The translations under genes and the position numbers were made by a program. DNA of 64,000 nt from positions 434,001 through 498,000 of the forward strand of contig NZ_CP061319.1 of the NCBI RefSeq assembly GCF_018688455.1, read 5' to 3'. Within the stretch, counting starts at the first letter, position 1. Every line of letters begins with the position of its first letter. The notes beneath the pieces were generated by a model. It was not told the origin of the DNA. It ran no database searches and saw nothing but the letters and a program-made list of their open reading frames with translations. The stretch comes from Polynucleobacter sp. AM-7D1 (GTDB taxonomy: Bacteria; Pseudomonadota; Gammaproteobacteria; Burkholderiales; Burkholderiaceae). Of the stretch, positions 27,175 through 40,523 are shown piece by piece.

Positions 27175-28101
27175 TTACAGGTATTGAACACCTGGTAGGG
27201 CGCATTGGCGAATCACTTCAGCTAGCTCATTCATTGCGGCTGCACGTGGAAAGTTCTTCCGCCAGACGAGGCAAACTCGTCTGGTTGGAATAGGATCCTC
27301 AAATGGGATGTAACGAATCAGCTGATCCGAAGAGGCAGTGTCAGAGGCTGATGTTCTCGGTAGCACTGAAATTCCGATGCCACTGGCTACCATCTGTCTA
27401 ATGGTTTCCAATGATGAGCCTTCAAAGCTACGCTGCTCTCCAATGGTTGCGCCAGATCCAAGGCGATTTAATTCTGGGCAGACGCCAAGAACATGGTCTC
27501 TAAAACAGTGACCCGTGCCAAGTAATAAAGTATTTTGTTCTTTAAGCTCTCGATGCGGAATTGATGTTCGGTTTTCCCAGGGGTGACCCTTGGGTACCGC
27601 GACTAAAAATGGCTCGTCATACAGGTCAATCTGGTTTAGTCCAGTGCTGGCAAAGGGCTCGGCTATCACGACACAATCTAATGCCCCTTGACGCAAGACT
27701 TCTAATAGACGAACAGTGAAGTTCTCCTCTAAGAATAAGGGGGCATGGGGTAGTCGCTCTCGTGCAACTCGTACTAGGCTAGGTAATAAGTAAGGCGCAA
27801 TTGTGTAGATGGCGCCAAGTCTCAGTGGACCTGACAGAGGGTCTTGACCATGCTTTGCCAAGTGCTTTAAGGAGTTGGCCTCCTCGAGTACTCTTTGGGC
27901 TTGATCGACAATCAATGCGCCAAGACTAGTCATTGCAACTTCAGTATTAGTACGCTCAAAAATTTGCGTGTTGAGCTCTTCCTCTAATTTTCTGATAGCT
28001 ACTGATAGGGTAGGTTGAGATACAAAGCAAGCATCAGCGGCCCTGCCAAAGTGGCGTTCTCGAGCAACTGCGACGATATAGCGAAGTTCTGTCAGGGTCA
28101 T
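27175..28101 (-). CDS. oxyR: Hydrogen-peroxide sensor OxyR (LysR family)
   Basis: OxyR activates peroxide defence genes after forming a disulfide. The 308-residue product begins MTLTELRYIVAVARERHFGR, a LysR helix-turn-helix, and carries GTGHCFRDHVLGVC with Cys199 and Cys208 at the same numbers as in Escherichia coli OxyR. Both redox cysteines are therefore present. It is convergent with the DUF3501 gene and overlaps the upstream DsbA-family gene by four bases, so it is likely cotranscribed with it. Rubrerythrin and its neighbours are plausible targets. Confidence 0.94.
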   Translation of the reverse strand: MTLTELRYIVAVARERHFGRAADACFVSQPTLSVAIRKLEEELNTQIFERTNTEVAMTSLGALIVDQAQRVLEEANSLKHLAKHGQDPLSGPLRLGAIYTIAPYLLPSLVRVARERLPHAPLFLEENFTVRLLEVLRQGALDCVVIAEPFASTGLNQIDLYDEPFLVAVPKGHPWENRTSIPHRELKEQNTLLLGTGHCFRDHVLGVCPELNRLGSGATIGEQRSFEGSSLETIRQMVASGIGISVLPRTSASDTASSDQLIRYIPFEDPIPTRRVCLVWRKNFPRAAAMNELAEVIRQCALPGVQYL

Positions 28102-28760
28102 GCTTGTTCGGTCTGAATTAATTGTTCAAATGCGTTGATAAAAGACTCAGGGGCTTGAGCCCCTTGGACGAGATATTGGTCATTCAGAATTACTGAGGGT
28201 ACAGAGTGAATTCCTGCACCAGTATATTGAGCCTCTTCTTCACGTACTTCATTTGCGTATAGCCCGCTATCAAGAATCTGCTTTGCTTTATCTGGATCCA
28301 AGCCGGCCGTAATGACTGCATTGAGAAGGTTTTGTTGATCATCTAAATTGACTGCCAGGCAGAAATACGTCTTCAGTAATTCTGTTTTTAAACTTGCTTG
28401 CTTCTCAAGGCCATACTCTTTACCGGCCCAATGCAAAAGACGATGTGCATCGAAGGTGTTATAGACTCGCTTGCGACCATCTGGATGGAACTTAAAGCCA
28501 GCCTCAAGGGCGCGCTCTCTAATCTGAGCTTGGTTAGCCTGTACTTGCTCTACGGTAAGACCATACTTTTCAGTAAGATGCTCAATAGCATCCTGGCCGC
28601 CCAAGGACATATTCGGATTAAGTTCGAAAGGTCGAAAGCGAACTTCAAAGTTTGCTTTATCACTGAATGCGGTGATAGCCTTATTGAGGTTGCCTAAGCC
28701 TACAGCACACCATGGGCAGGCTATGTCCGATACAAAGTCAATTTTGATGGTGGGTTTCAT
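28098..28760 (-). CDS. DsbA-family oxidoreductase, FrnE-like
   Basis: FrnE-type proteins are cytoplasmic DsbA-fold disulfide oxidoreductases or isomerases. The 220-residue product has no signal peptide, starts with a DFVSDIACPWCAVG motif (active Cys15 and Cys18), and has the helical insertion and a cis-Pro segment near SVPSVILNDQYLVQG. It overlaps oxyR by four bases and is the first gene of that two-gene unit, in keeping with thiol-redox homeostasis. A 2-hydroxychromene-2-carboxylate isomerase role is possible for the broader family but is less likely given the CPWC motif. Confidence 0.88.
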   Translation of the reverse strand: MKPTIKIDFVSDIACPWCAVGLGNLNKAITAFSDKANFEVRFRPFELNPNMSLGGQDAIEHLTEKYGLTVEQVQANQAQIRERALEAGFKFHPDGRKRVYNTFDAHRLLHWAGKEYGLEKQASLKTELLKTYFCLAVNLDDQQNLLNAVITAGLDPDKAKQILDSGLYANEVREEEAQYTGAGIHSVPSVILNDQYLVQGAQAPESFINAFEQLIQTEQA

Positions 28761-29200
28761 AGAAACTATTCTACAGAGGCTTATGAATCAATGCTCACCA
28801 AGTAAGTGTGATAACTGTTTTGGGTGGTTTTTAGCGGGTATATGTGCGCCAGAAAGTGTTGAAATGCTTTCATGTCAGATGGTAATTATTAAAGAATTTG
28901 TCTGAGATTGTTCCTGGGTAAGTTATTCATGAGTCGGGCGAGCCCGAGCTCGCGACCAACGGACAGAAAAGAGCTTACAGGTCTAAAAACCTAAATTAGC
29001 AATTAATAGATGCACAAATCAGCCGTTCGGTTAAGTGTGCTCAGCCTAATTAGCCACCTCAATGCTCACGAGATAAAAGTCATTAATTAAGCCCTAGGCC
29101 TTCGCTTTATATTTTTTCCAAGATATTGAGAAACTCTATGTAGGTAAGCAGAGTATTGAGAGTTCTGTTACTGTATTTGGGTATATTTTGGAGAGCATTC
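28761..29200. other. Intergenic region with a tRNA-Lys-like fragment
   Basis: This 440-base gap lies between the divergent FrnE-like gene and the alpha/beta hydrolase. It has no convincing gene. It holds the tRNA-like fragment at 28931-28971 and two short copies of a CAATGCTCAC-type sequence (about 28786 and 29061). Base composition is AT-rich near 29080-29190, where the hydrolase promoter should be. Confidence 0.6.
28931..28971 (-). repeat. Fragment resembling the 3' half of tRNA-Lys
   Basis: Aligned with the intact tRNA-Lys gene (39029 onwards), this stretch matches 11 of 12 bases over GAGTCGGGCGAG. The T-loop is changed (six bases instead of seven), then there are 15 of 15 matches over CTCGCGACCAACGGA, followed by a shared AAAAG. 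The D-arm and acceptor 5' strand are absent. It has the same orientation as the intact tRNA, so it could be a distal attachment-site remnant of an island inserted at that tRNA. Confidence 0.75.
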
Positions 29201-29992
29201 ATGAAAAAATTTATCAGCGCCAATCATATTCAGATGGCTTATCAAATCGATGGACCAGAGGATGGACCGCCAGTTTTCCTTAGCAATAGCCTGATGTCTA
29301 GTTTAGAAATGTGGGATGACAATATTGATGCTCTGATAGATCGCTACCGTGTTATTCGTTACGATACTCGTGGCCATGGTCAATCCCAGGTAACAGATGG
29401 TCCATATAACATTGGATTGCTGGGTCAAGATCTAGTTGGCCTAATGGATGCGCTCCATATTCAGCAGGCGCATCTGGTTGGGTTGTCTATGGGTGGCATG
29501 ATTTGCCAATATGTTGGCGCTAATTTTCCAGACAGGGTACTGTCCTTAAGTCTTTGTGATACCGCCAGTGAAATGCCACCTCGTAGCTTATGGGAAGAGC
29601 GTTTTTCTATCGCTCAAACTTCAGGGATTGCTGGTTTAGTTGATGGGACTATTAAGCGCTGGTTCCTGGAGGGTTTTATCAATCGCGAACCTCAGAAAAT
29701 TGATGTGGTCAGGAAGATGATTCTTGCGACACCTGTGGATGGTTATCTAGCTTGCGGTAGCGCGGTTCGGGATATGGCGCAATCCACTATGCTGCTTAAG
29801 ATTAAGGCGCCGACTATGGTGCTAGTGGGCAAACAGGATCCAGCCTGCACCCTTGATCAGGCGACTGTTTTACATCGTTTAATCCCTCAGTCGTCTCTTA
29901 AGGTGATTGATCAGGCAGCGCATCTATCAAATATTGAAAAACCCCAAGAATTTAATTTTCATCTCAGGGAATTCCTAGATTCTGTGGCATAG
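29201..29992 (+). CDS. Alpha/beta hydrolase, 3-oxoadipate enol-lactonase-like
   Basis: The 263-residue product has a PcaD-like alpha/beta-hydrolase fold with an oxyanion-type segment SNSLMSSLEMWD, the nucleophile elbow GLSMGG (Ser near residue 96), an acid in VGKQDPACT and the catalytic His in QAAHLSNIEKP. The family hydrolyses enol-lactones or other esters. I start at ATG 29201, about ten bases after GGAG; the frame is open further upstream but unlike the family. It precedes a Bug/TctC binding protein and an amidohydrolase, suggesting carboxylate or lactone catabolism. The substrate is not identifiable and no other pca gene is nearby. Confidence 0.85.
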   Translation: MKKFISANHIQMAYQIDGPEDGPPVFLSNSLMSSLEMWDDNIDALIDRYRVIRYDTRGHGQSQVTDGPYNIGLLGQDLVGLMDALHIQQAHLVGLSMGGMICQYVGANFPDRVLSLSLCDTASEMPPRSLWEERFSIAQTSGIAGLVDGTIKRWFLEGFINREPQKIDVVRKMILATPVDGYLACGSAVRDMAQSTMLLKIKAPTMVLVGKQDPACTLDQATVLHRLIPQSSLKVIDQAAHLSNIEKPQEFNFHLREFLDSVA

Positions 29993-30042
29993 TCATATTT
30001 AGTTGAGCGCCAAAAATAATAATTAACTACTAGGAGATATTG

Positions 30043-31041
30043 ATGAATTCATTTTCATTTACTCAGCTTATGAAGCCAATAACGCTTTCGATGGCTGTGT
30101 TTTTTAGTTTACAAGTGCAGGTGACTAATGCGCAGAATGCTGCAGCCAGTTATCCAGATAAAACTGTCAAAGTTATTGTCCCTCTGACACCAGGCTCAGG
30201 TGCAGATATTGCTGGTCGTATTGCATTTAAGACTGTTGCTGAAATGTGGAAACAGCCTGTGATTATTGAAAATCGCCCAGGTGCAGGTGGCTTAGTTGGA
30301 ACTGGCGTAGTTGTAAATTCTGATCCGAACGGCTATACCTTGTTAGTTCAATCAGCTTCTTATGCAGCTAACCCAGCAATTTATAAAAAATTACCCTATG
30401 ACTTAAAAAGTCTTACCGATGTCAATATTTTAGGTACCAGCCCTTACGCATTGGTTGTCTCTGCAGATAGCCCATATAAAACTCTAAGCGATCTTGTTAA
30501 TGCAGCAAAAGCGCAGCCAGGAGCAATTCCTTTTGCAAGCGCTGGCGTGGGAAGTTCAACGCATCTTGCTGCCGAGTACTTTAATCAAACCATGGGAATT
30601 AAAATGTTGCATGTTCCCTATAAAGGTTCGCCAGAGGCAATATCTGAAACTATTTCACAACGTACCGCCTATTACATGGCGCCGTTGCAAACCGCGATTG
30701 CTCAAATTCAAGGCGGTAAAGTACGAGCTCTTGGGGTTACAAGTGCCACCCGTGCTGAAGCAGCACCAGAGATTCCTACTATTGCCTCACAAGGTTTTCC
30801 AGGTTTTGAAATTGGTTTATGGGTAGGTCTCTGGGCGCCATCAGCAACGCCAAAAGCTATTTTGCAGAAGATCAATACTGACGTTAATGCCGCACTTCAG
30901 GATCCTCAAGTGGTCTCCGCCTATACAAAGGCTGGTATTACTATTAAGTTGATGAATTTGGCAGAAACTGAAAAATTCGTTCAATCTGAAATTAATAAGT
31001 ATCAGAAAATTGCCAAACAAGCAGGAATCGAACCGCAGTAA
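30043..31041 (+). CDS. Bug/TctC-type periplasmic solute-binding protein (first)
   Basis: The 332-residue product has a signal peptide (cleavage likely near residues 30-33) and the Bug-family core: YPDKTVKVIVPLTPGSGADI, ENRPGAGGLVG and MLHVPYKGSPEAI. Bug proteins bind carboxylates or small organic acids and feed tripartite TctAB transporters, but Burkholderiales carry many orphan copies. No tctA or tctB is in the window. It has AGGAGA at 30032-30037. The following amidohydrolase frame overlaps its 3' end, so they are likely cotranscribed. Confidence 0.92.
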   Translation: MNSFSFTQLMKPITLSMAVFFSLQVQVTNAQNAAASYPDKTVKVIVPLTPGSGADIAGRIAFKTVAEMWKQPVIIENRPGAGGLVGTGVVVNSDPNGYTLLVQSASYAANPAIYKKLPYDLKSLTDVNILGTSPYALVVSADSPYKTLSDLVNAAKAQPGAIPFASAGVGSSTHLAAEYFNQTMGIKMLHVPYKGSPEAISETISQRTAYYMAPLQTAIAQIQGGKVRALGVTSATRAEAAPEIPTIASQGFPGFEIGLWVGLWAPSATPKAILQKINTDVNAALQDPQVVSAYTKAGITIKLMNLAETEKFVQSEINKYQKIAKQAGIEPQ

Positions 31042-31918
31042 CATTCCCATATGCCAAGCACCAGATCCGCTTCTTAAAAAACCGGATCTGCGTGTTTGTT
31101 GGGGTGCTACAGATTGTCATGCGCATATCTGTGGGCCTCACTCTATCTATCCTTACTCGCCGCAGAGGATATACACACCACCAGATGCGCTACTTCCGCA
31201 ATATCAAAGTCTTTTAGAGACATTGGGTATTGAGCGTGCTGTACTAGTTCAGCCGAGCATTTATGCTGATGACAATCGAGCCCTACTCAATGCACTAGGC
31301 ACCAATCCTAAGCATCTCCGTGGTGTGGCGGTGGTCAATACTAACATTACAGATTCCTATCTTGAGGAGCTGCATCATGCGGGTGTTAGGGGTGTCAGAT
31401 GCAATATTGTTGATTTGGCGGACGCGAAGGGCATTTTGCCCATGGATAATCTACGTTATCTTGCAGATAAGATCGCGCCTTTTGGTTGGCATATGGAATT
31501 CTTAATGCATGCCAATGAGTTTCCTGACCTCAATCAGATTTTGAAAGAATTTCCAGTGCCTGTTGTGTTGGGTCATTTGGGCTACATTAAAACGAGCCAT
31601 GGAATTCATGATCGTGGTTTTCAAAATCTTTTAGCTTTAATGCGTGAGGGGCGTGCATGGGTCAAGCTAACAGGACCTTATCGCATTTCTTCTTTTGCTC
31701 AACCGCCTTATTCCGATACAAATGCATTCGCTCAGGCCTTACTTGAAGCGAATTCCAATCAATTGGTATGGGGGAGCGATTGGCCGCATGTGATGGTAAA
31801 AGGTTTTATGCCAAATGATGCCGACTTGTTGGATTTATTAATAAACTGGGTCCCAGATTCACTATTAAGGGAAAAAATTCTTCGCGAGAATCCAGCAAGG
31901 CTATATCAATTTAATTGA
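31010..31918 (+). CDS. Amidohydrolase of the 2-pyrone-4,6-dicarboxylate hydrolase type
   Basis: The product (about 302 residues) is a TIM-barrel amidohydrolase with the strand-1 metal motif TDCHAHICGP, a conserved VPVVLGHLGY, and a C-terminal WGSDWPH. These match LigI-like and related lactone-hydrolase proteins. Such enzymes open the lactone of 2-pyrone-4,6-dicarboxylate in lignin-aromatic breakdown, but close relatives act on other lactones. The start is uncertain: the frame begins with TTG 31010 inside the preceding gene and no in-frame ATG lies before the core. Beside an enol-lactonase-like hydrolase it suggests lactone catabolism. Confidence 0.83.
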   Translation: MPNKQESNRSNIPICQAPDPLLKKPDLRVCWGATDCHAHICGPHSIYPYSPQRIYTPPDALLPQYQSLLETLGIERAVLVQPSIYADDNRALLNALGTNPKHLRGVAVVNTNITDSYLEELHHAGVRGVRCNIVDLADAKGILPMDNLRYLADKIAPFGWHMEFLMHANEFPDLNQILKEFPVPVVLGHLGYIKTSHGIHDRGFQNLLALMREGRAWVKLTGPYRISSFAQPPYSDTNAFAQALLEANSNQLVWGSDWPHVMVKGFMPNDADLLDLLINWVPDSLLREKILRENPARLYQFN

Positions 31919-32040
31919 AAGTCGCCATTCAATATGCGGGAAATTTTAAGGGATAGTTCTTTGAGAATTTTCTCGATCCCAGCGATTAGTCTCCAGCATA
32001 CTCTGGCACTTGAGGCTAGGTAGTGCTGGTAGGTCAGGTA

Positions 32041-32089
32041 GAATTGACTTAGTTAGAACTTCGTTGTCGAATTCGCCACGAGCGGAATC
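32041..32089 (-). repeat. Weak tRNA-Lys T-arm-like fragment
   Basis: Bases 32068-32089 match the tRNA-Lys T-arm region at 17 of 22 positions (TCGAATTCGCCACGAGCGGA). The 36 bases from 32041 match 27 of 36 with the fragment at 36874-36909 without gaps. It lies between the amidohydrolase and the LysR-CaiB block. The short length makes chance resemblance possible, but the pairwise match to the second fragment supports a common origin. Confidence 0.5.
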
Positions 32090-32118
32090 AATTATTTAAA
32101 ATTGTTGAGTCAAGAGAT

Positions 32119-33042
32119 TTAAGTCAATGATTTTGGAGTTGGCGTAAGAAGATGTTGGCTAAGCAATGTTGCAGCAGGCAACTGATTGATTTTTGCCTTC
32201 ATTGCTAAGAGAAGATTTCTATGAGCCCAAGAATCCTCAAGTTGAATAGTCTTGAGATCCAATGCCTTGATTTGAGCTGCGCAGGCCTGAAGTGGTAAGA
32301 CGCCTATTCCCAAGTTCACTGCGATCATCTGGCACATGGCATCGTAGCTTCTAACCTGAATTCTCAGTTTCATATGTTTTCCCAACTTCTCAGCGCTTCG
32401 AGAAGTGAGTTCAAGTAATGAGCTGCCTCTGTTAAGTCCTACAAAATCATATTCAAGACATTCTTCAAATGAGATGTGCTTCCTTTTGCCTAACTGATGC
32501 CCCTTGCTGCACACAATGACCAACTGATCTCTACCAATGATTTGAGTATCCAATCCAGATGTAGCTGGTCCTTCAGCAAAGACACCAATATCAGCTATTC
32601 CATCCATTAATGCTCTTACGATATCGCCACTCAATTGCTCCTCCACTTCAACCTGTATTTCAGGGTGAATTTTTAGGAAGCTAGCCAGTGAAGCTGGTAG
32701 AAACTCAGTTAAGGCAGACATGTTTGCCCAGAGCCTGACGTGGCCTTTTACCCCTTTAGAGTATTCACCTAATTCATTACTTAATTGTTCGAAGCCTTGA
32801 AATAGTCTTAATGCATGCTGCATCACTGCATGGCCTGCAGGTGTAAGGGATACGCCTCTAACAGAGCGCTCTAGTAAGGGGATTCCTACTGTTTCTTCAA
32901 ACTCGGAAATTCGTCTGCTAGCAGCTGATAGAGCTAGATTACATGCGCTGGCCCCCTTGGTAATGCTTCCGGATTGCACTATGGAGCAGAAGAGCTTGAG
33001 AGTAACAAAGTCCACTCTGGCGGGGTTGAGCGGGTTTTTCAT
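32119..33042 (-). CDS. LysR-family transcriptional regulator
   Basis: The 307-residue product has a LysR winged helix-turn-helix near residues 12-70 (LFCSIVQSGSITKGASACNL, then SAASRRISEFEETVGIPLLE). Its effector-binding domain carries FVGLNRGSSLLE and an IAVNLGIGVLPLQA motif. It is divergent from the CaiB gene with 112 bases between starts, the standard LysR arrangement, so it probably controls the CoA-transferase/lyase operon in response to that pathway's substrate. The co-inducer is unknown. Confidence 0.92.
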   Translation of the reverse strand: MKNPLNPARVDFVTLKLFCSIVQSGSITKGASACNLALSAASRRISEFEETVGIPLLERSVRGVSLTPAGHAVMQHALRLFQGFEQLSNELGEYSKGVKGHVRLWANMSALTEFLPASLASFLKIHPEIQVEVEEQLSGDIVRALMDGIADIGVFAEGPATSGLDTQIIGRDQLVIVCSKGHQLGKRKHISFEECLEYDFVGLNRGSSLLELTSRSAEKLGKHMKLRIQVRSYDAMCQMIAVNLGIGVLPLQACAAQIKALDLKTIQLEDSWAHRNLLLAMKAKINQLPAATLLSQHLLTPTPKSLT

Positions 33043-33154
33043 GGAGTAATTCTAACCATACCTTCGCAAAATGAGAAGGAGTCGACCTGAAATAGCAATT
33101 TTCAAGATTGATGAAGGGGAGTACCTTTGCTAAAAAGATATATCAGAGGGTCGT

Positions 33155-34351
33155 ATGGAGCCATTAGCAAAGTTAAAAGTAATTGAGATGGGTCAGTTGA
33201 TTGCCGGCCCATTTGCGGCCAAAACTTTGGCTGACTTCGGTGCCGATGTCATCAAAATAGAGCCGCCAAATGTGGGTGATGCGCTACGTAAATGGCGATT
33301 GCTGAAGAATGGAACCTCTGTTTGGTGGCAGGTTCAGTCACGCAATAAGCGATCCCTCTCATTAGATCTAAAGCTAGTAGAGGCTCAAGAAATTGTCAGG
33401 ACGCTCGTAAAAGAAGCGGATGTATTAATTGAAAACTTCCGTCCCGGAACGCTAGAGGGGTGGGGTCTTGATCCACAAAAATTACTGGAACTTAATCCAC
33501 ACCTCATTGTTCTTCGTATCAGTGGTTATGGTCAAACAGGTCCCTATCGTGATAAGCCGGGATTTGGTGTAGTAGCAGAAGCCATGGGAGGCTTACGTCA
33601 TCTTACTGCTGAGCCTGGAAGGGTGCCGGTTCGGGTGGGCATCAGCATTGGGGACACCTTAGCGTCCTTACATGGTGTTATTGGAATATTACTGGCTCTG
33701 CAAGAGCGACATCACAGTGGCCAAGGGCAAATTATTGATATCGCACTGTATGAGGCAGTATTTAATTGCATGGAAAGTTTATTGCCTGAATACAGTGCAT
33801 TTGGCGAAGTAAGGCAGGCAGCTGGAAGTGCTTTGCCGGGTATTGCTCCCACCAATGCCTATCTGTGTGCAGATGGAGGGTATGTTCTTGTAGCTGGCAA
33901 TGGCGATAGTATATTTAAGCGTCTTATGGCGGTCATCGGGCGTGATGATCTGGGTAGCGATCCTCAGCTAGAGAATAACGATGGCCGTGTGAAGCGTGTT
34001 GCTGAGCTTGATGGGGCTATTGGTGAATGGGCTAAAACAGTTAGCACTGATCAGGCTTTGGAGATTCTGGACTCTGTTTCTGTTCCTGCCGGTCGAATTT
34101 ATACCATTGCTGATATTGCTAGCGATCCTCATTACAAGGCACGGGGCAATATTGAAACGATTCAAATGCAAGATGGATCTAAATTAGATGTGCCTGGTGT
34201 GATTCCAAAACTTTCCCGTACGCCTGGATCCATTAAGACTCTTGCTCCTGATATTGGAGAGAATACTGATGAGATATTACGTGGTCTTGGCTTGAATGAA
34301 TTTCAAGTTACGTCCTTAAAAGAACGCGGTGTTGCGTTTACTAAAAGCTAA
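33155..34351 (+). CDS. CaiB/BaiF-family (class III) CoA-transferase
   Basis: Class III CoA-transferases move CoA between carboxylic acids through an aspartyl intermediate. The 398-residue product has the family start LKVIEMGQLIAGPFAAKTLA, the nucleotide-contacting DVIKIEPPNVGD, and the likely catalytic Asp167 in VGISIGDTLAS. Its neighbours are an HMG-CoA-lyase-type enzyme (its stop overlaps the raw open frame but not the chosen start), a VOC protein and a Bug binding protein. A likely role is activation of an imported hydroxy- or methyl-branched dicarboxylate. The specific acid cannot be read from sequence. Confidence 0.92.
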   Translation: MEPLAKLKVIEMGQLIAGPFAAKTLADFGADVIKIEPPNVGDALRKWRLLKNGTSVWWQVQSRNKRSLSLDLKLVEAQEIVRTLVKEADVLIENFRPGTLEGWGLDPQKLLELNPHLIVLRISGYGQTGPYRDKPGFGVVAEAMGGLRHLTAEPGRVPVRVGISIGDTLASLHGVIGILLALQERHHSGQGQIIDIALYEAVFNCMESLLPEYSAFGEVRQAAGSALPGIAPTNAYLCADGGYVLVAGNGDSIFKRLMAVIGRDDLGSDPQLENNDGRVKRVAELDGAIGEWAKTVSTDQALEILDSVSVPAGRIYTIADIASDPHYKARGNIETIQMQDGSKLDVPGVIPKLSRTPGSIKTLAPDIGENTDEILRGLGLNEFQVTSLKERGVAFTKS

Positions 34352-34364
34352 TGAACAAAAGATT

Positions 34365-35300
34365 ATGACAAGAATATATTTTAACGATGTAGTTACAAGA
34401 GATGGGTTTCAAATTGAGTCCAACTTTATTCCTACCGATGACAAAGTAAAGTTGGTAGATGAGCTGAGCGGATGTGGTTTCGCAAAAATCGAGGTGACAT
34501 CATTTACTTCCCCAAAGTCTATCCCTATGCTCAGAGATGCGGAAGAGGTTATGGGCCGCATTAAACGATTGCCTGGTGTGGAATACACCGTTTTGGTACC
34601 AAATCTTCGAGGTGCAGAGCGAGCCTTTGAATCTAAGGCTGATGAATTTAATTTGGTGATGTCCACATCTGAAACGCACAATCTAGCGAATCTTCGAATG
34701 GGAAGAGAAAAAAGCTTTTCTGGATTAGCGGAGGTAATTAAATACGTTGATGGCAGAACACCCATCAATGTTTCACTCTCCACCTGCTTTGGTTGCCCTA
34801 TGGAGGGTGAGGTTCCTCAAGATGTTGTGGAGGGATTTGCACAGCGCTTTGCAGATCTAGGTGTAAGGGGTATTACGATTTGCGATACAACGGGGATGGC
34901 CAATCCAGATCAGGTAAAGAGGATGTGTGATTCACTTCAAAAACGCTTTCCTAATCTTCAGTTAACTTTGCACTTCCACAATACACGAGGCATGGGTTTA
35001 GCCAATATTTTGGCGGCGGTTCAGTCTGGCATTGTGCAATTTGATGGATCACTCGGTGGCTTAGGAGGGTGCCCTTACGCGCCTGGAGCAAGCGGAAATG
35101 TTTCTAGCGAAGATGCCATCCATATGCTTGATGCCATGGGGTATGACACAGGTATCAACATACCTAAGTTATTGCAGCTTGCTAAGGAGTTGCCACAGAT
35201 CGTCGGTCATGAGGTTCCAGGTCAGGTTGCCAAGGCTGGTAGCACTTACACACTGCATCCCGAGCCAAGTTATGTTGAAGAGTTACGCCGCGCGCAATAA
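34365..35300 (+). CDS. HMG-CoA-lyase-family enzyme
   Basis: The 311-residue product (start chosen at ATG 34365, giving the usual IYFNDVVTRDGFQIES N-terminus) has a DRE-TIM fold. The Arg-Asp pair is kept, but the common DGLQ reads DGFQ. The HFHNTRGMGLANI segment supplies the metal histidines, and GLGGCPYAPGASGNVSSED holds the catalytic-loop cysteine. HMG-CoA lyases cleave 3-hydroxy-3-methylglutaryl-CoA or related acyl-CoA to acetyl-CoA or pyruvate plus a second product. With a CoA-transferase directly upstream the pair could activate and cleave one substrate. It is followed by VOC and Bug genes. Confidence 0.9.
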   Translation: MTRIYFNDVVTRDGFQIESNFIPTDDKVKLVDELSGCGFAKIEVTSFTSPKSIPMLRDAEEVMGRIKRLPGVEYTVLVPNLRGAERAFESKADEFNLVMSTSETHNLANLRMGREKSFSGLAEVIKYVDGRTPINVSLSTCFGCPMEGEVPQDVVEGFAQRFADLGVRGITICDTTGMANPDQVKRMCDSLQKRFPNLQLTLHFHNTRGMGLANILAAVQSGIVQFDGSLGGLGGCPYAPGASGNVSSEDAIHMLDAMGYDTGINIPKLLQLAKELPQIVGHEVPGQVAKAGSTYTLHPEPSYVEELRRAQ

Positions 35301-35379
35301 ATTCTAAAGAAACTTTGATTGCGAAACCCCTATTTCCGGGTGCATTACCTAAACTGGAAGAACTTTATATGAGGAGAAA

Positions 35380-35775
35380 ATGATGATTAATCACTTAGAT
35401 CATCTGGTGCTTACGACAGCTAAGGAAGCTGAGTGCGTGGATTTTTATACCCGTGTTCTTGGAATGAAGCTCGAATCTTTTATTGGCGGCACTCCGCCAG
35501 TTGAGAGAAAAGCATTTAAGTTTGGTAATCAAAAAATTAACCTGCATATTAAAGGCAAAGAGTTCGAGCCAAAAGCAGACATTCCTACTCCAGGATCACT
35601 AGATCTTTGTTTTATTGCTGATCGACCGCTGGAGAAGGTCATTGAAAAATTGATGGTAGAGGGTTGGCCTATTATTGAAGGCCCAATTCTTCGTACTGGC
35701 GCTACGCAAAAAATAAATTCAGTTTATGTGCGCGATCCAGATCAAAATTTAATTGAAGTATCTGAGTTAATTTAA
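35380..35775 (+). CDS. VOC-superfamily (glyoxalase-fold) protein
   Basis: The 131-residue product has the vicinal-oxygen-chelate pattern: an N-terminal LDHLVLTTAKEAECVDFYTR with a metal His, then KINLHIKG, and a C-terminal VYVRDPDQNLIEVSEL with the metal Glu. VOC proteins include glyoxalases, epimerases and ring-cleaving dioxygenases; this one is too generic to assign. Two ATGs in tandem (35380 and 35383) follow a GAGGAG site. It is cotranscribed with the CoA-transferase/lyase genes, so it may epimerise or isomerise an intermediate. Confidence 0.88.
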   Translation: MMINHLDHLVLTTAKEAECVDFYTRVLGMKLESFIGGTPPVERKAFKFGNQKINLHIKGKEFEPKADIPTPGSLDLCFIADRPLEKVIEKLMVEGWPIIEGPILRTGATQKINSVYVRDPDQNLIEVSELI

Positions 35776-35797
35776 ATAAATAATTAAGGAGACAAAA

Positions 35798-36775
35798 ATG
35801 AAGATGAATGCATTTATAAAAACACTAGCGGCCCTTTCACTCGGAACTTTGGCCTTATCTGGGCTTGCCCAAGAAACTTATCCAAATAGGCCGATAACAC
35901 TAGTTGTTCCCACCTCGCCCGGAGGAACTACAGACTTTACTGCCCGTTTAATTTCTGAGTCGCTATCTAAAGCGCTTGGACAGCCTGTCGTGGTGGAGAA
36001 TAAGGGGGGTGCATCAGGCAATATTGGCGGACAAGCAGTGGCAACTGCTAAGCCTGATGGATATACCTTATTGGTAGCGTATAGCGGCTATCAAGTAGGC
36101 AATCCCCATTTGTTTAAAAAGGCCCCATGGGATCCAATTAAAGACTTCACACCAGTAGCCTTTTTAACTAAAGCTCCACAAGTAGTTGTTGCTACTCCTA
36201 GCTTACCAGTGAGTGACTTGAAGGAGCTAACAGCTTACGCCAAAGCCAATCCTGGTAAGTTAAATTACGCCTCTTCAGGAAATGGTTCGATTCAACATAT
36301 TGCAGGTGAATTATTGAAACAAATTACTGGAACTCGCATGGCGCATATACCCTATAAAGGAGCGGGCCCAGCAGTGCAAGATTTAATGGCAGGTCAAGTA
36401 GATTTGATTATTACTACGCCAGCTTCAGTTGTTGGACAAATTAAAGGGGATAAATTAAAAGCCTTGGGAGTTACTAGTCAAACACGGCTAAGTGCTTTGC
36501 CTAATGTGCCAACAACAAGCGAGCAAGGTATTAAGAACTTCAATCTTGACTCTTGGTTTGCCTTATACGCTCCAGCAGGAACTCCTCCAGATGTAGTTAA
36601 GAAATTAAATACAGAGATCAATAAGATACTTGCTCGCCCTGAGATCCAAAAGAAGGCAGAAGACTCGGGAACTTTTGTTGAGCAAATGACCCCAGCCCAA
36701 TTGGCAAGCTTTACAAAGAAGGAATACGATTACTGGGGAAATGTGATCAAGAATGCGAGTATTACTGCGGAATAA
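35798..36775 (+). CDS. Bug/TctC-type periplasmic solute-binding protein (second)
   Basis: The 325-residue product has a signal peptide cleaved near residue 24 (SGLA/QETYP) and the Bug core: YPNRPITLVVPTSPGGTTDF, ENKGGASGNIGG and MAHIPYKGAGPAVQD. It is only moderately like the first Bug protein in this window, so the two probably bind different acids. It is the last gene of the CaiB operon and is followed by a terminator hairpin. No transporter membrane subunits are present, so it must work with components encoded elsewhere. Confidence 0.93.
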   Translation: MKMNAFIKTLAALSLGTLALSGLAQETYPNRPITLVVPTSPGGTTDFTARLISESLSKALGQPVVVENKGGASGNIGGQAVATAKPDGYTLLVAYSGYQVGNPHLFKKAPWDPIKDFTPVAFLTKAPQVVVATPSLPVSDLKELTAYAKANPGKLNYASSGNGSIQHIAGELLKQITGTRMAHIPYKGAGPAVQDLMAGQVDLIITTPASVVGQIKGDKLKALGVTSQTRLSALPNVPTTSEQGIKNFNLDSWFALYAPAGTPPDVVKKLNTEINKILARPEIQKKAEDSGTFVEQMTPAQLASFTKKEYDYWGNVIKNASITAE

Positions 36776-36823
36776 GTTGCTTATCGACTAGAGGTAGCCC
36801 TAAACATTCTGAGCGATAAAAAG

Positions 36824-36853
36824 AAAGGGGGTCGCATTCTTGTGACCCCTTTG
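36824..36853 (+). terminator. Intrinsic terminator after the second Bug gene
   Basis: A hairpin pairs GGGGTCGC with GTGACCCC (one G-T pair), flanked by AAA and TTT, about 50 bases after the Bug stop. It is followed by GTATTACT, a tag also found after the hairpins near 37400 and 39016. Confidence 0.8.
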
Positions 36854-36873
36854 TATTACTCATGGATTAGGTT

Positions 36874-36909
36874 AGATTGACTTCATCGAAACTTCGTTTT
36901 CGAACTCGC
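36874..36909 (-). repeat. tRNA-Lys T-arm-like fragment after a terminator
   Basis: The segment holds TTCGAACTCGCG (36899-36910), a 12-base match to the intact tRNA-Lys T-arm, and is preceded by the GTATTACT tag. It matches the fragment at 32041-32076 at 27 of 36 positions. Relative to the intact gene, about 20 extra bases lie between the tag and the T-arm match. Confidence 0.55.
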
Positions 36910-36983
36910 GGCAAGATTTTTTGGAAAATGACCCGCTGATGCTACGATAGAATTGCTGAATTGCCAACACAAAGGACCAGACC

Positions 36984-37226
36984 ATGAAAATTATTAATTC
37001 CACATTGATTGCTCTGGCAGCGGGCCTTGTATTAACAGCTTGCGCTCAGCAGACAGAATTAATCCCCACCAAAGGCCAATCAGCTGAGCGCTACAACCAA
37101 GACCGTGCAGCTTGTATAAAAGAGTCCAATACATACTACGGCAACAGCGGCGGTGCTCCATCCGAGTCTGATGTATTTTTGGGGTGCATGAAGTCAAAGG
37201 GGTATCAAGTTAAACAAAAGTTCTAA
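36984..37226 (+). CDS. Small lipoprotein of unknown function
   Basis: The 80-residue product has a lipoprotein signal ending LVLTACAQQ (lipidated Cys20). A small domain with two further cysteines (DRAACIKESN and FLGCMKSKGY) probably forms a disulfide. The YNQDRAAC...GCMKSKGY spacing recalls short glycine-zipper-like or YmgG-type lipoproteins but is not diagnostic. It stands alone between two tRNA-like fragments and may be a small accretion in the block. Confidence 0.78.
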   Translation: MKIINSTLIALAAGLVLTACAQQTELIPTKGQSAERYNQDRAACIKESNTYYGNSGGAPSESDVFLGCMKSKGYQVKQKF

Positions 37227-37378
37227 TGCTGATAGATCTGAGTGCTAAGTACTTGGACCGTATTAAAGAATGCAAATTGTCCTAAGGGCAGGAGATACAC
37301 GTCAGCCACCCCCTTGGTTAGCGACTACAAGACCATACTTACTACCAACTGCCTCTCATTCCATCCAGTCTAAAAAGA

Positions 37379-37408
37379 AAAAGCCCCTAGATTTCTCTAG
37401 AGGCTTTT
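37379..37408 (+). terminator. Intrinsic terminator hairpin
   Basis: Arms AAAAGCCCCTAGA and TCTAGAGGCTTTT pair with one mismatch around a TTTC loop. On the plus strand it is followed by GTATTACTGG. The flanking AAAAAGAAAAAGCC matches the sequence at the tRNA-Lys terminator near 38990. Confidence 0.75.
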
Positions 37409-37460
37409 GTATTACTGGGATGTCAGTTGAAATTCGAACTTGCGAGCACTAGATTAAAAG
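37409..37460 (-). repeat. Diverged copy of the tRNA-Lys 3' half
   Basis: Aligned without gaps to 39018-39069, it matches about 40 of 52 positions. These include GTATTACTGG, ATTCGAACT, GCGA and GATTAAAAG, which covers the T-arm, variable region and the 3' side of the anticodon arm. Several stem pairs are broken, so it is not a working tRNA. It has the same orientation as the intact gene. Confidence 0.7.
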
Positions 37461-37540
37461 AAATCAAACTTCTTCAAAAATACAGCGTAATCAATTCTTT
37501 TAAGCGCAGAATGCCATGTGCGATTTTGTGCACAAAAAAT

Positions 37541-38947
37541 TTAGAAATTGTCAGTAGCGCAGGGGACTTTACCGGATTTAATTGCTTTTAAAAATGTAGC
37601 ATAGTCAGCCTCATTTTGTTTGCTGTAAGCAATCGAGAACTTGACGAGAGCATCATCTAGGGCTTCACTTTTTCCGCAGTAGCCGGCAAGAACGGCAGGG
37701 TCTCCTGAACGGGCATGGGCGTTGGCCAATGCCCATCCAAATAGTTTTGCAAAATCTGGAAATACTTTAGTGTTGATGCCGTCTCCCCCAACTGAAATTC
37801 CGCCCTTCATGTCACGTAGCTGCCTGACATAAAAATCTACTTCTGATGTTTTTCCAAAACCTAGAAAGAGATCTGGAGCCCCTTGTATTAAGCATTGCCC
37901 ATGAACGACGCGTTCCCCTTCGGACTTAAATTGCGTATCTGGAAAAAAGGAAGCGAGAACTGATTTTTGGGCCTGCTTTGTCTGGAGGAAAAGCGGATCA
38001 TTGTTATCGAGTCCTTCAAAATACATTACCCAGCAACCGGTCCCCACACTGCCAACCCCAACAACTTTTCTGGCCCAATCAATCCATTTGTAGCGTAGTA
38101 ATAAGTGCTTGCGATCTGGTGCTAGAGACTGAATGTAGGAATTTAGACCTTCGTCATTGAGCTCGGCAATACTTTTTCCATGAGGCGAGAATTGGGGATG
38201 CTCTATCAGTGGGGGATTATTAATGAGTCGAGTCCCCTCATCACTAAATTCTGTCAGCTTTCCAAGCATGCCGTGGCTACTATTTTTTCTAGCCTTATTC
38301 AATAAATGCTCTAAATACTCTTGGCTTGCAGCGTTTGCCTTTTTCGCCGCAATACTTGCCAGTGATTTCTCATCTATATAAGTATGTTTGAGATCTATAT
38401 AGGGCATAGAAGCATATTGATGAAGATTATTTCTATATGCTGTCGTGATATTTCGAACAATATCTTCTCCATAAGCCTGATCTTGACCAAGTAACTTCGA
38501 TGCAATCATGGCGCTTGCTGTCAGTCGCTTTAAATCCCAGTCAAAATTTCCGGGAAGAGTTTCATCAAAATCATTAATTCCAAAAACCAACTGATGTTCG
38601 GTTGTGGAAAAGAACCCAAAGTTACTAACGTGCATATCTCCGCATAATTGAACTTGAATGGAAGGGCTCGGGAGTTTGGCTAAGTCATGCGCCATAGTTG
38701 CAGCACCACCTCTAAAAAATGCAAAGGGGTCGGCTGCCATTCGAGCATGGCGAATTGGGATGTATTCAGGAATTCTGGTTTTAGCTTGAGCAAGCAGAAT
38801 CTCAATTGGGTCTTGGCGCTTGCTGACTTCAGTAAATTGCCCAAGCGAGGATCTATCAACCTCTTTGCGAATCGATTTTCCTAAGCTAAGTCGTTCTTGA
38901 GGATTTGGATTCTTTTTAAGAAATGATTTGTACAGTTTGCTGGACAT
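37541..38947 (-). CDS. DUF2252 family protein
   Basis: The 468-residue product matches the DUF2252 pattern: PIRHARMAADPFAFFRGGAA, then QLCGDMHVSNFGFFS, GINDFDETLPGNFDWDLKRL and VVGVGSVGTGCWVM. These motifs resemble an aminoglycoside-phosphotransferase-like kinase fold (GDxHxxNFG and the DFDET metal motif), but the substrate is unknown. It lies directly downstream of tRNA-Lys on the same strand, in the position where integrated DNA usually accumulates. No signal peptide is present. Confidence 0.9.
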   Translation of the reverse strand: MSSKLYKSFLKKNPNPQERLSLGKSIRKEVDRSSLGQFTEVSKRQDPIEILLAQAKTRIPEYIPIRHARMAADPFAFFRGGAATMAHDLAKLPSPSIQVQLCGDMHVSNFGFFSTTEHQLVFGINDFDETLPGNFDWDLKRLTASAMIASKLLGQDQAYGEDIVRNITTAYRNNLHQYASMPYIDLKHTYIDEKSLASIAAKKANAASQEYLEHLLNKARKNSSHGMLGKLTEFSDEGTRLINNPPLIEHPQFSPHGKSIAELNDEGLNSYIQSLAPDRKHLLLRYKWIDWARKVVGVGSVGTGCWVMYFEGLDNNDPLFLQTKQAQKSVLASFFPDTQFKSEGERVVHGQCLIQGAPDLFLGFGKTSEVDFYVRQLRDMKGGISVGGDGINTKVFPDFAKLFGWALANAHARSGDPAVLAGYCGKSEALDDALVKFSIAYSKQNEADYATFLKAIKSGKVPCATDNF

Positions 38948-38992
38948 GGTTCTATGATCTCATAGACTTTGGGCGGTAAAAGCCCCAAAAGA

Positions 38993-39016
38993 AAAAGCCA
39001 CCCGAAGGTGGCTTTT
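38993..39016 (-). terminator. Intrinsic terminator of tRNA-Lys
   Basis: A perfect ten-base hairpin (AAAAGCCACC and GGTGGCTTTT around CGAA) lies just beyond the 3' end of tRNA-Lys, with a T-tract on the minus strand. It would end the tRNA transcript before the DUF2252 gene. Confidence 0.88.
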
Positions 39017-39024
39017 GGTATTAC

Positions 39025-39100
39025 TGGTGGGTCGGGCGAGATTCGAACTCGCGACCAACGGATTAAAAGTCCGCTGCTCTACCGACTGAGCTACCGACCC
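39025..39100 (-). tRNA. tRNA-Lys (anticodon UUU)
   Basis: The minus strand reads a complete 76-base tRNA with encoded CCA. Acceptor strands GGGTCGG and CCGACCC pair. The D-arm holds AGCTCAGTCGGTAGAGC, the anticodon loop is CTTTTAA with anticodon TTT, and the T-arm is GCGAGTTCGAATCTCGC. It is intact. Four fragments resembling its 3' half lie within the 10 kb downstream of its 3' end. Confidence 0.97.
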
Positions 39101-39185: not shown

Positions 39186-40523
39186 CTAGGCGTTAGCGCG
39201 TCTGGCAACAGGTGGATTTTTGGAGAAATAGTCCTTAATTCCTCTCAGAATGGCTTCTGCAATGCGGTCTTGATAAGCATCATCATTCAGACGAGCCTCT
39301 TCTTGAGGATTGCTGATAAACGCTGTCTCAACGAGGATTGAGGGGATGTCAGGAGCCCTGAGAACAGCAAAGCTAGCTTGCTCCACCTTATTTTTATGTA
39401 GCGGAGCAAATCCACCAATTTGCTTCAAGATCGACTGCCCTACTTGTACAGAATCTTTAATTTGTGCGGTTGTAGACATATCCAATAGAAGATTAGCAAC
39501 CTGCTTGTCCTGCGTCTTGATATTGATACCACCAATTAAATCGGAAGCATTTTCTTTATTGGCCATCCAGCGTGCAGTAGTACTGCTGGCACCCATTTGG
39601 GATAGGGCAAAAACGGATGCGCCTTTGGCTCTAGGTTCGATAAATGCATCTGCATGAATCGATACAAATAAATCCGCCTCCACTCGACGTGCTTTTTGCA
39701 CTCTAGTATGGAGTGGTACAAAGTAGTCGCCATCCCTAGTCAAAAATGGACGCATATACGCATCATTGTCAATTTTGTCGCGTAAGCGTTTCGCAATAGA
39801 AAGAACAACATTCTTCTCTTTAGAGCCCATCGCGCCAATAGCGCCTGGATCCTCTCCACCATGACCCGCATCGATTGCAATGGTGATGAGGCGCTTTTGT
39901 TTTGCTGGAGCAGCTGGTTGTTTTACATCTGGAATGGCTTGAGCTACTGGAGCCCTTGGAGCTTCCTTTTCTTTCTTGGTTGCGAACTGTGCAATCAAAT
40001 CGATTTCTTCATTGGCCTTTTCTAGTGCATTCTCTTTGCGGGCACTACTCTTAACTAATTCCATCAAAGGATCTGGCGGAGTCGCTGGGTAGAGATCAAG
40101 CACCATGCGATACTGATATTCCGCAATGGGGTCTAGTGTGAAGAGTTGAGGTTTAACAGGCTCTTTAAGGTCAAAAACGATACGCACCATACCAGGTTGA
40201 AATTGCCCCACACGAATTTGTGAGACATAGGGATCGTTGGGCTTAACCTTAGCTACCAAGTCTTTCAGGGTGGAATTCAATTCCATGCCTTGAACATCGA
40301 CCACCAAGCGATCGGGATTGCTCAGTAATTGTTGTGTAATGGGTAGCGCTTTATCGGATTCCATCGTGATCCGTGTGTAATCTTCTGCGGGCCAAATACG
40401 TACACCCAAGATCTTTGCACCCCAAGCAATCTCTGCCTCGCCAAGGAAGAGGATGAAACCCAGCATCTTTGCTGAAGTTTTAAGATGTTTTCTTCTAGAG
40501 GAATTGATGGGTGACTTGCTCAT
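39186..40523 (-). CDS. amiC: N-acetylmuramoyl-L-alanine amidase, AmiC-like
   Basis: AmiC splits septal peptidoglycan for daughter-cell separation. The 445-residue product has a twin-arginine-like signal (SSRRKHLKTSAK), an N-terminal AMIN domain (about residues 38-140, VRIWPAEDYTRITMESDKAL), a linker, and a C-terminal amidase_3 domain (about 215-435). Zinc and catalytic motifs are present: TIAIDAGHGGEDPGAIG, VSIHADAF and PSILVETAFISNPQE. It follows tsaE by two bases on the same strand, a common betaproteobacterial order. Confidence 0.94.
   Translation of the reverse strand: MSKSPINSSRRKHLKTSAKMLGFILFLGEAEIAWGAKILGVRIWPAEDYTRITMESDKALPITQQLLSNPDRLVVDVQGMELNSTLKDLVAKVKPNDPYVSQIRVGQFQPGMVRIVFDLKEPVKPQLFTLDPIAEYQYRMVLDLYPATPPDPLMELVKSSARKENALEKANEEIDLIAQFATKKEKEAPRAPVAQAIPDVKQPAAPAKQKRLITIAIDAGHGGEDPGAIGAMGSKEKNVVLSIAKRLRDKIDNDAYMRPFLTRDGDYFVPLHTRVQKARRVEADLFVSIHADAFIEPRAKGASVFALSQMGASSTTARWMANKENASDLIGGINIKTQDKQVANLLLDMSTTAQIKDSVQVGQSILKQIGGFAPLHKNKVEQASFAVLRAPDIPSILVETAFISNPQEEARLNDDAYQDRIAEAILRGIKDYFSKNPPVARRANA

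Follow-up and report, generated by a model that had tools for sequence, protein, structure and literature searches.

A probable decayed array of units integrated at the tRNA-Lys(UUU) gene of a Polynucleobacter genome

Introduction

What do four tRNA-like fragments mark in the 10 kb beside a single tRNA gene? The question is raised by a window of 64 kb (G000:C1:434001-498000) in the genome of Polynucleobacter sp. AM-7D1 (one contig of 1.93 Mb, labelled G000 here), in which sequences resembling the 3′ half of tRNA-Lys(UUU) separate blocks of genes that lie between that tRNA gene and the gene for a DsbA-like protein. The original prediction was of repeated insertion at one tRNA, with the integrases since lost.

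We conclude, with a probability of about 0.83, that units integrated at tRNA-Lys(UUU) make up the 10 kb from this gene to that of the DsbA-like protein and form an array that has since decayed; genome hot spots of this kind are known, and the window shows an old and worn one. The direct support is that remnants of the tRNA 3′ half stand at borders and that three of the four gene blocks vary independently. In relatives, exact 45-bp copies of the tRNA 3′ half often flank the units at this tRNA, and some of these units encode tyrosine recombinases.

Counts over several genomes refer to 61 genomes, namely that of the window and 60 of the 100 relatives drawn, and are not a census. The 60 were selected for contiguity, favouring genomes with known copies, and two have less than 150 bases of sequence 3′ of the tRNA. 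The 3′ regions of relatives were all oriented by the tRNA, and some were extended. Genomes (G) and loci (L) are given by our labels where they must be told apart.

Results

Fragments of tRNA-Lys in the window

ARAGORN calls a sole tRNA in the window, a tRNA-Lys(TTT) gene, intact as predicted (Table 1). The four fragments share its strand, and each was aligned with the 36 distinct tRNAs of the window genome. Fragments 1 and 4 favour tRNA-Lys, with scores of 23 (runner-up 11) and 21 (runner-up 13), respectively, and fragment 4 also retains the trailer found 3′ of the tRNA gene. Fragment 2 has no clear preference (13 for tRNA-Lys, 12 for other tRNAs), and fragment 3 scores 12 on tRNA-Lys and 13-15 on Leu and Ser tRNAs. 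Plain tRNA alignment was therefore rejected as a sole test, since fragments 2 and 3 escape it; they align poorly because they carry a T-loop insertion that relatives reveal as a recurrent variant, called V below.

Hidden Markov models (HMMs) were prepared with genomes G000, G079 and G082 left out, a plain model from 90 copies and a V model for the insertion-bearing type, and E-values were computed over the window plus its reversed copy. With either model the five highest matches in the window are the tRNA and the four fragments, the best match in the reversed window having an E-value of 0.18 (plain) or 2.2 (V). In the nearest relative, G079, the counterpart of fragment 3 lies 1521-1574 past the tRNA, and the tRNA-Lys 3′ end is still readable there. 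Judged by sequence, all four fragments are remnants of the tRNA-Lys(UUU) 3′ half. The prediction of four same-strand fragments thus holds; that they are simply diverged copies holds for 1 and 4, which match directly, whereas 2 and 3 are insertion-bearing and not merely worn, and their limits are better set as in Table 1 than as first given.

Table 1. Features of the tRNA-Lys site, in window positions
Feature	Position	Strand	Basis
Far flank, DsbA-like protein (frnE in the original prediction)	28098..28760	-	Family match
Fragment 1, tRNA-Lys 3′ half, altered T-loop, far border	28931..28971	-	Plain model E=0.0034; tRNA alignment
Unit 4 cargo: PcaD-like hydrolase, Bug-type receptor, amidohydrolase	29156..31918	+	Family matches
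Fragment 2, tRNA-Lys 3′ half with T-loop insertion (variant V)	32029..32090	-	Held-out V model E=1.4e-7
Block 3: LysR (-); CaiB-type CoA-transferase, HMG-CoA-lyase-like, VOC, Bug-type receptor (+)	32119..36775	mixed	Family matches
Fragment 3, tRNA-Lys 3′ half with T-loop insertion (variant V)	36864..36914	-	Held-out V model E=1.2e-12
Unit 2 cargo, 80-aa lipoprotein-like open reading frame	36984..37226	+	Lipobox judged by eye
Fragment 4, decayed tRNA-Lys 3′ half, anticodon loop to CCA, with trailer	~37402..37460	-	Plain model E=0.0019
Unit 1 cargo, DUF2252 protein	37541..38947	-	Pfam DUF2252 1.3e-120
tRNA-Lys(UUU), intact, anchor	39025..39100	-	ARAGORN; nt 32-76 = 45-bp repeat of relatives
Near flank, AmiC-type amidase (amiC), tRNA 5′ side	39186..40523	-	Amidase_3 and AMIN domains

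Arrays at the same tRNA in relatives

The tRNA with its flank, used as a query, has matches in at least 100 of 101 genomes, along with many further copies of tRNA nt 32-76. The 5′ side of the tRNA is fixed: each of the 60 relatives compared has amiC there. Its 3′ side is hypervariable. In the 3′ regions of the 61 genomes we count 108 same-strand copies scoring at least 15, against 2 in reversed and 6 in opposite-strand controls of 31,852 tiles each. Thirty-four of the 108 are identical over 45/45 bp (spread over 22 of the 61 genomes), and 42 genomes have a copy scoring at least 20. Exact copies in relatives begin sharply at tRNA nt 32, many copies are accompanied by trailers and by terminator-like hairpins (by eye), and among the loci examined no array has copies on mixed strands. 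When a pattern was searched across the family, 12 of 120 genomes had a match, and 11 of the 12 are Polynucleobacter; this search has no bearing on other genera, in which tRNA-Lys presumably departs from the pattern at more than 3 bases.

The hairpins that follow many copies would also suit a dispersed repeat or terminator family that merely resembles a tRNA half, as would the failure of fragments 2 and 3 to score better on tRNA-Lys than on other tRNAs. However, the copies of relatives include exact 45-bp ones, found on the 3′ side and strand of the tRNA, and in the window genome the matches besides the site and the tRNA gene at 1913123 are trailer only or have E-values of at least 0.05. We regard such a family as an extremely improbable source of the fragments.

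The hot spot looks still active in relatives, as far as sequence comparison can suggest. The islands of G045 and G099 (42 and 39 kb) have at least 19 protein pairs at 96-100% identity, and the amiC proteins of these genomes are 76% identical; because the island proteins are nearly identical despite this distance, the site looks to have been in recent use between species. Both islands carry an integrase (loci L051, L086 and L087; L076-L078) and, as we take it, metal-efflux-like cargo. More broadly, 174 of 593 shared open reading frame (ORF) pairs, which are not independent, surpass the identity of amiC by more than 3 points.

The variant with a T-loop insertion

V copies have a conserved T-loop insertion of ~21 nt, AACGAAGTTTCGRCGAAGYCA or close. 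Among the loci fetched there are 33 such copies in 20 genomes, that of the window included (e.g. L114, L115, L116, L089). Upstream of 30 of the 33, scores for the tRNA 5′ half lie within background; the other three, all in G030, score 9-11, and 3 of 2,486 background tiles score at least 11. The idea that V copies are whole tRNA genes bearing an insertion was rejected, since these 30 have no 5′ half above background, the three of G030 are borderline and no tRNA is called there. The insertion would be expected to spoil tRNA function, and V sites are therefore improbable as regenerated tRNA genes. In G050, a divergent species, another insertion (~60 nt by eye) occupies the same T-loop position ~8.4 kb past the tRNA (L062).

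A stable RNA fold of the V insertion was also rejected (z-scores -1.6, -1.1 and -0.3). One pair of its hairpin varies on both sides (13 G-C, 12 A-U, 2 G-U and 4 unpaired among 31 copies). Cells paired and the covariation score beat all but 1 of 500 shuffles with relatedness uncontrolled; the number of pairs changed on both sides is not significant, its value being reached in 154 of 500. Covariation in the hairpin is thus only a hint. Clustering of V copies was likewise set aside: adjacent V-V pairs number 10 against 3.2 in a shuffle of all copies, at loci that had been fetched for holding V, and shuffling within arrays gives p 0.067.

The 5′-half scores bear on a further alternative, that a tandem cluster of tRNA-Lys genes has worn down to the fragments and that other genes came to lie in between by chance. 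Copies do lie on the tRNA strand, many retaining trailer and terminator, and for the three of G030 a whole-tRNA remnant is possible. Yet exact copies have an abrupt start at nt 32, 5′ scores are at background for the other 30 V copies, ARAGORN found no second tRNA-Lys in the 23 loci scanned, and integrases lie inside some units. A tandem cluster is very unlikely.

Gain and loss of gene blocks

Homologues of the window's blocks were counted at 50% identity or more over the 3′ regions of relatives (median 36.8 kb). The flanks of G079 have ~96% DNA identity to the window. Its alignment with the window ends 3 bp past the tRNA and resumes at 37270, and in place of the DUF2252 block it has another block of 1.08 kb with a tRNA copy at its end. 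Window 32119-28795, which holds the hydrolase-Bug-amidohydrolase genes and fragments 1 and 2, is missing from G079. G082 has the lipoprotein gene first, then a tRNA remnant and then DUF2252, so that the window order is inverted. DUF2252 homologues occur elsewhere in the arrays of G082, G023 and G026, with none in the 3′ region of G079; the lipoprotein has protein homologues in G079 and G082 and a DNA match in G040 (searches of Pfam and NCBIfam with this ORF gave no match). The hydrolase block has no homologue at the 50% level in the relatives' 3′ regions. These three blocks were gained or lost independently among relatives, as predicted for all four; for block 3 this is not clear.

The CaiB and HMG lyase genes of block 3 occur in nine relatives, eight of which also have VOC, and its LysR in two (G079 and G036). 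DNA beyond CaiB is common for 1.9-6.0 kb between pairs of G036, G035, G004, G038 and G091, and the tRNA-side flank of the block is common only partly, in some pairs of those five. Because it adjoins shared far-flank DNA in these relatives, block 3 is left out of the case for mobility. It may belong to an old far border that received insertions and not itself be an insert, the shared DNA being more in line with the former than with a recent insertion. Relatives have the CaiB-HMG lyase-VOC genes (window 33155-35775) at 6-37 kb from the tRNA. In G079 the Bug receptor gene of this block has an internal deletion of ~700 bp (L015; window counterpart 35923-36632).

Breakpoints were counted in six relatives picked for sharing blocks, excluding secondary matches of the tRNA repeat and the outer core ends. 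Of 29 inner alignment ends, 20 lie within 150 bp of a fragment or tRNA end, where by our own arithmetic ~15% of positions would fall by chance, although the breakpoints are not independent, eight of the 20 being at the tRNA and three marking one and the same border (28795, which is 136 bp from fragment 1). By genome the counts are 4/6 (G079), 6/6 (G082), 2/5 (G036), 1/5 (G091), 3/3 (G023) and 4/4 (G040). That breakpoints fall at the fragments was thus borne out, and with the independent blocks and the 45-bp repeats and integrases of relatives this supports repeated insertion at one tRNA.

Blocks might instead have been swapped by homologous recombination between core flanks, as in a replacement island, with the tRNA fragments as passive passengers. 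Polynucleobacter asymbioticus has replacement islands with recombination hot spots at their flanks, according to excerpts of the report (PMC5644125). In our data, far-border homology to G079, G082 and G040 stops at the common point 28795, and the shared far-flank DNA beside block 3 is in keeping with such exchange. Against it, G079 swaps a single block between the tRNA and the next fragment with both flanks kept, unit order differs in G082, and end sequences and integrases mark site-specific units in relatives. We consider replacement unlikely as the origin of this array.

Units, integrases and cargo

Unit borders were set at copies scoring at least 20 and reaching nt 70 or further; weak and most V copies were not used, and some units are composite (units 2-4 of the window count as one). 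Between successive copies there are 90 units, 88 in relatives and 2 in the window, ranging from 241 bp to 48 kb. A phmmer search of ORFs of at least 60 aa, which divergent integrases could escape, found a tyrosine recombinase in 17 of the 90 units with the wider protein set (15 with a narrower first set), all in relatives. By size these are 0 of 36 units below 2 kb, 0 of 16 of 2-6 kb and 17 of 38 of at least 6 kb. The predicted loss of integrases is only one possibility, as none of the 52 units below 6 kb has one and many may never have had one. Twelve units carry an integrase of the 462-aa type, and in 7 of them no other gene lies between it and the tRNA or copy. Ten units have a second recombinase of ~220 aa, and three have a REP_ORF2-G2P-type protein.

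For the recurrent small genes, representative sequences match VbhA antitoxin (7.5e-12), Zeta_toxin (2.9e-12) and Fic (1.3e-16). By BLAST membership, Fic is in six units (two of 0.94 kb) and a zeta-like gene in six (four of ~1.05 kb). A 96+109-aa pair with no family above cut-off, our guess being a further toxin-antitoxin system, is in eight (five of ~0.97 kb). Eleven integrase-free units of ~1 kb are toxin-antitoxin-like, with either a Fic or zeta-like gene and a VbhA-like antitoxin or the unassigned pair (e.g. loci L041, L043, L048, L050). At the distal end of 14 units is an ORF of 65-89 aa without a family match, whose stop codon, where read, is 3 bases ahead of the identical part of the tRNA copy. 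A 27-kb unit (G044 L020, L091; G076 L084-L085), presumably with a nitrate-reductase-like operon, has a zeta-type toxin-antitoxin end as in the 1-kb units.

Units were further classed by their distal ends, the 45 bases before the distal copy, at thresholds of 11-12 and with integrase status from the first set of 15. The classes hold 23 units (4 with integrase) for A, 15 (0) for B, 7 (0) for C, 4 (1) for D and 6 (3) for E, leaving 35 (7) with none. Among the integrase-bearing A units, G053 (score 12) and G065 (14) are near threshold, with G045 (30) and G027 (17) firmer; two class-E units with lower scores are also near threshold. A proximal end is common to 30 of 112 unit starts (3 with integrase, 24 without, 3 open-ended), the model having been built from the same set, with two starts too short to search and one weak match (E 0.0066). 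If units were mobilised in trans, those with and those without integrase would be expected to share ends, as they do; deletion of an integrase would leave the same trace. Integrase-free cargo may be moved by the integrase of another element.

Discussion

In the mechanism that we propose, a recombinase would act at the tRNA 3′ half, the incoming element's own copy restoring the tRNA and the old copy being displaced to the far end. Further insertions would stack units, and old copies would decay. Small integrase-free units, such as those of DUF2252 and the lipoprotein, would owe their insertion to co-resident elements whose integrases use the same core and ends. In the window itself the copies look too worn to move now.

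Several observations weigh against a decayed array of integrated units. The window genome has three matches to PF00589 (at 269442, 1656746 and 1880534), and that search gave no integrase at the tRNA-Lys site. At the window fragments no end sequence is above threshold. Nine of the 29 alignment ends lie away from fragments, mostly inside block 3, so ordinary deletion and recombination also act; and block 3, with shared far-flank DNA beside it in five relatives, need not be an insert. The age gradient among copies is weak: over 29 arrays, decay increases outward in 36 pairs, is tied in 33 and runs opposite in 17 (permutation p 0.025), and the two plain fragments of the window reverse it, scoring 15 near and 22 far. 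Strict outward ageing is rejected, the trend having exceptions. No excised circle has been seen, which sequence alone is incapable of showing.

A bolder reading of the hot spot likens it to an integron in two respects. A few resident elements would supply integrases that act in trans on integrase-free cassettes, many of them toxin-antitoxin with the last gene ending at the attachment site (att) copy, that share ends with integrase-bearing elements. In addition, V would be an att lineage that is unable to rebuild a working tRNA and, freed from the tRNA, builds its own cassette runs. We offer this combination tentatively and think it rather unlikely to hold in full. An actual integron cassette array is rejected for the window, whose site has no PF00589 match and whose repeats are tRNA 3′ halves.

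The arrays show that accessory genes enter the genomes of a freshwater genus through one tRNA gene, where intact units stand next to fossil ones. Trans-mobilisation of integrase-free cassettes could be tested directly in isolates whose 45-bp repeats are intact, and fossil borders such as those of the window reveal acquired gene blocks though no integrase remains.

Comparison with known systems

A study of 2017 reportedly dealt with genomic islands of P. asymbioticus. By title and abstract, none of the Polynucleobacter papers listed deals with this tRNA-Lys hot spot, and an earlier description is possible. Integrative and conjugative elements provide examples of cis-mobilizable elements and of accretion. 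Ccr-like integrases are of the serine type.

The comparisons that follow draw on excerpts of the cited papers. In Dehalococcoides, multiple tandem islands lie downstream of ssrA, and a direct repeat of the ssrA 3′ end closes each of them; 15 of 31 are without an integration module and were suggested to be cis-mobilizable (PMC3146451). Tandem units at one stable-RNA gene, 3′-end repeats and units free of an integration module are common to both systems. They differ in that Dehalococcoides has a tmRNA gene, a 20-bp repeat and a Ccr-like integrase (PMC3146451), whereas Polynucleobacter has tRNA-Lys, a 45-bp repeat and tyrosine recombinases, and its arrays further contain the ~1-kb toxin-antitoxin-like units and the T-loop-insertion variant. 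Att-bearing units without integrase beside integrase-bearing elements with the same core also recall cis-mobilizable elements and accretion (PMC3146451). The window units, judged by their ORFs and families, contain no integrase or transfer genes, and att-like fragments flank them; the units would thus be cis-mobilizable-like, with putative att-like flanks that are now degenerate.

A freshwater counterpart is fGI-2 of Ca. Methylopumilus, where direct repeats of a tRNA-Lys end vary in number and islands range from 330 bp to 42 kb (PMC10872708). The likeness lies in a freshwater host and tRNA-Lys-end repeats beside additive islands; the Ca. Methylopumilus site differs in using tRNA-Lys(CTT) and a 20-nt repeat. 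Integrase-free unit families with shared ends, as in Polynucleobacter, are not mentioned in the PMC10872708 passages on fGI-2. Tycheposons, as described there, are marked by large cargo, their own tyrosine recombinase and a tRNA border (PMC10872708); at the window site the PF00589 search found no such recombinase, and some units of relatives would fit in these respects. Ca. Actinomarinales have small cassettes at tRNAs, identified by a terminal direct repeat of the tRNA, but there five tRNAs lie inside one cell-surface island and two other tRNA sites are used (PMC7771536). The concept of additive islands comes from Alteromonas (PMC5217437), and features of an additive-island array are found here: a tRNA at the border, 3′-end repeats, unit-wise gain and loss, and a recombinase in units of relatives. 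Tandem island arrays at tRNA and tmRNA genes were already known, and to these the Polynucleobacter tRNA-Lys array is newly added.

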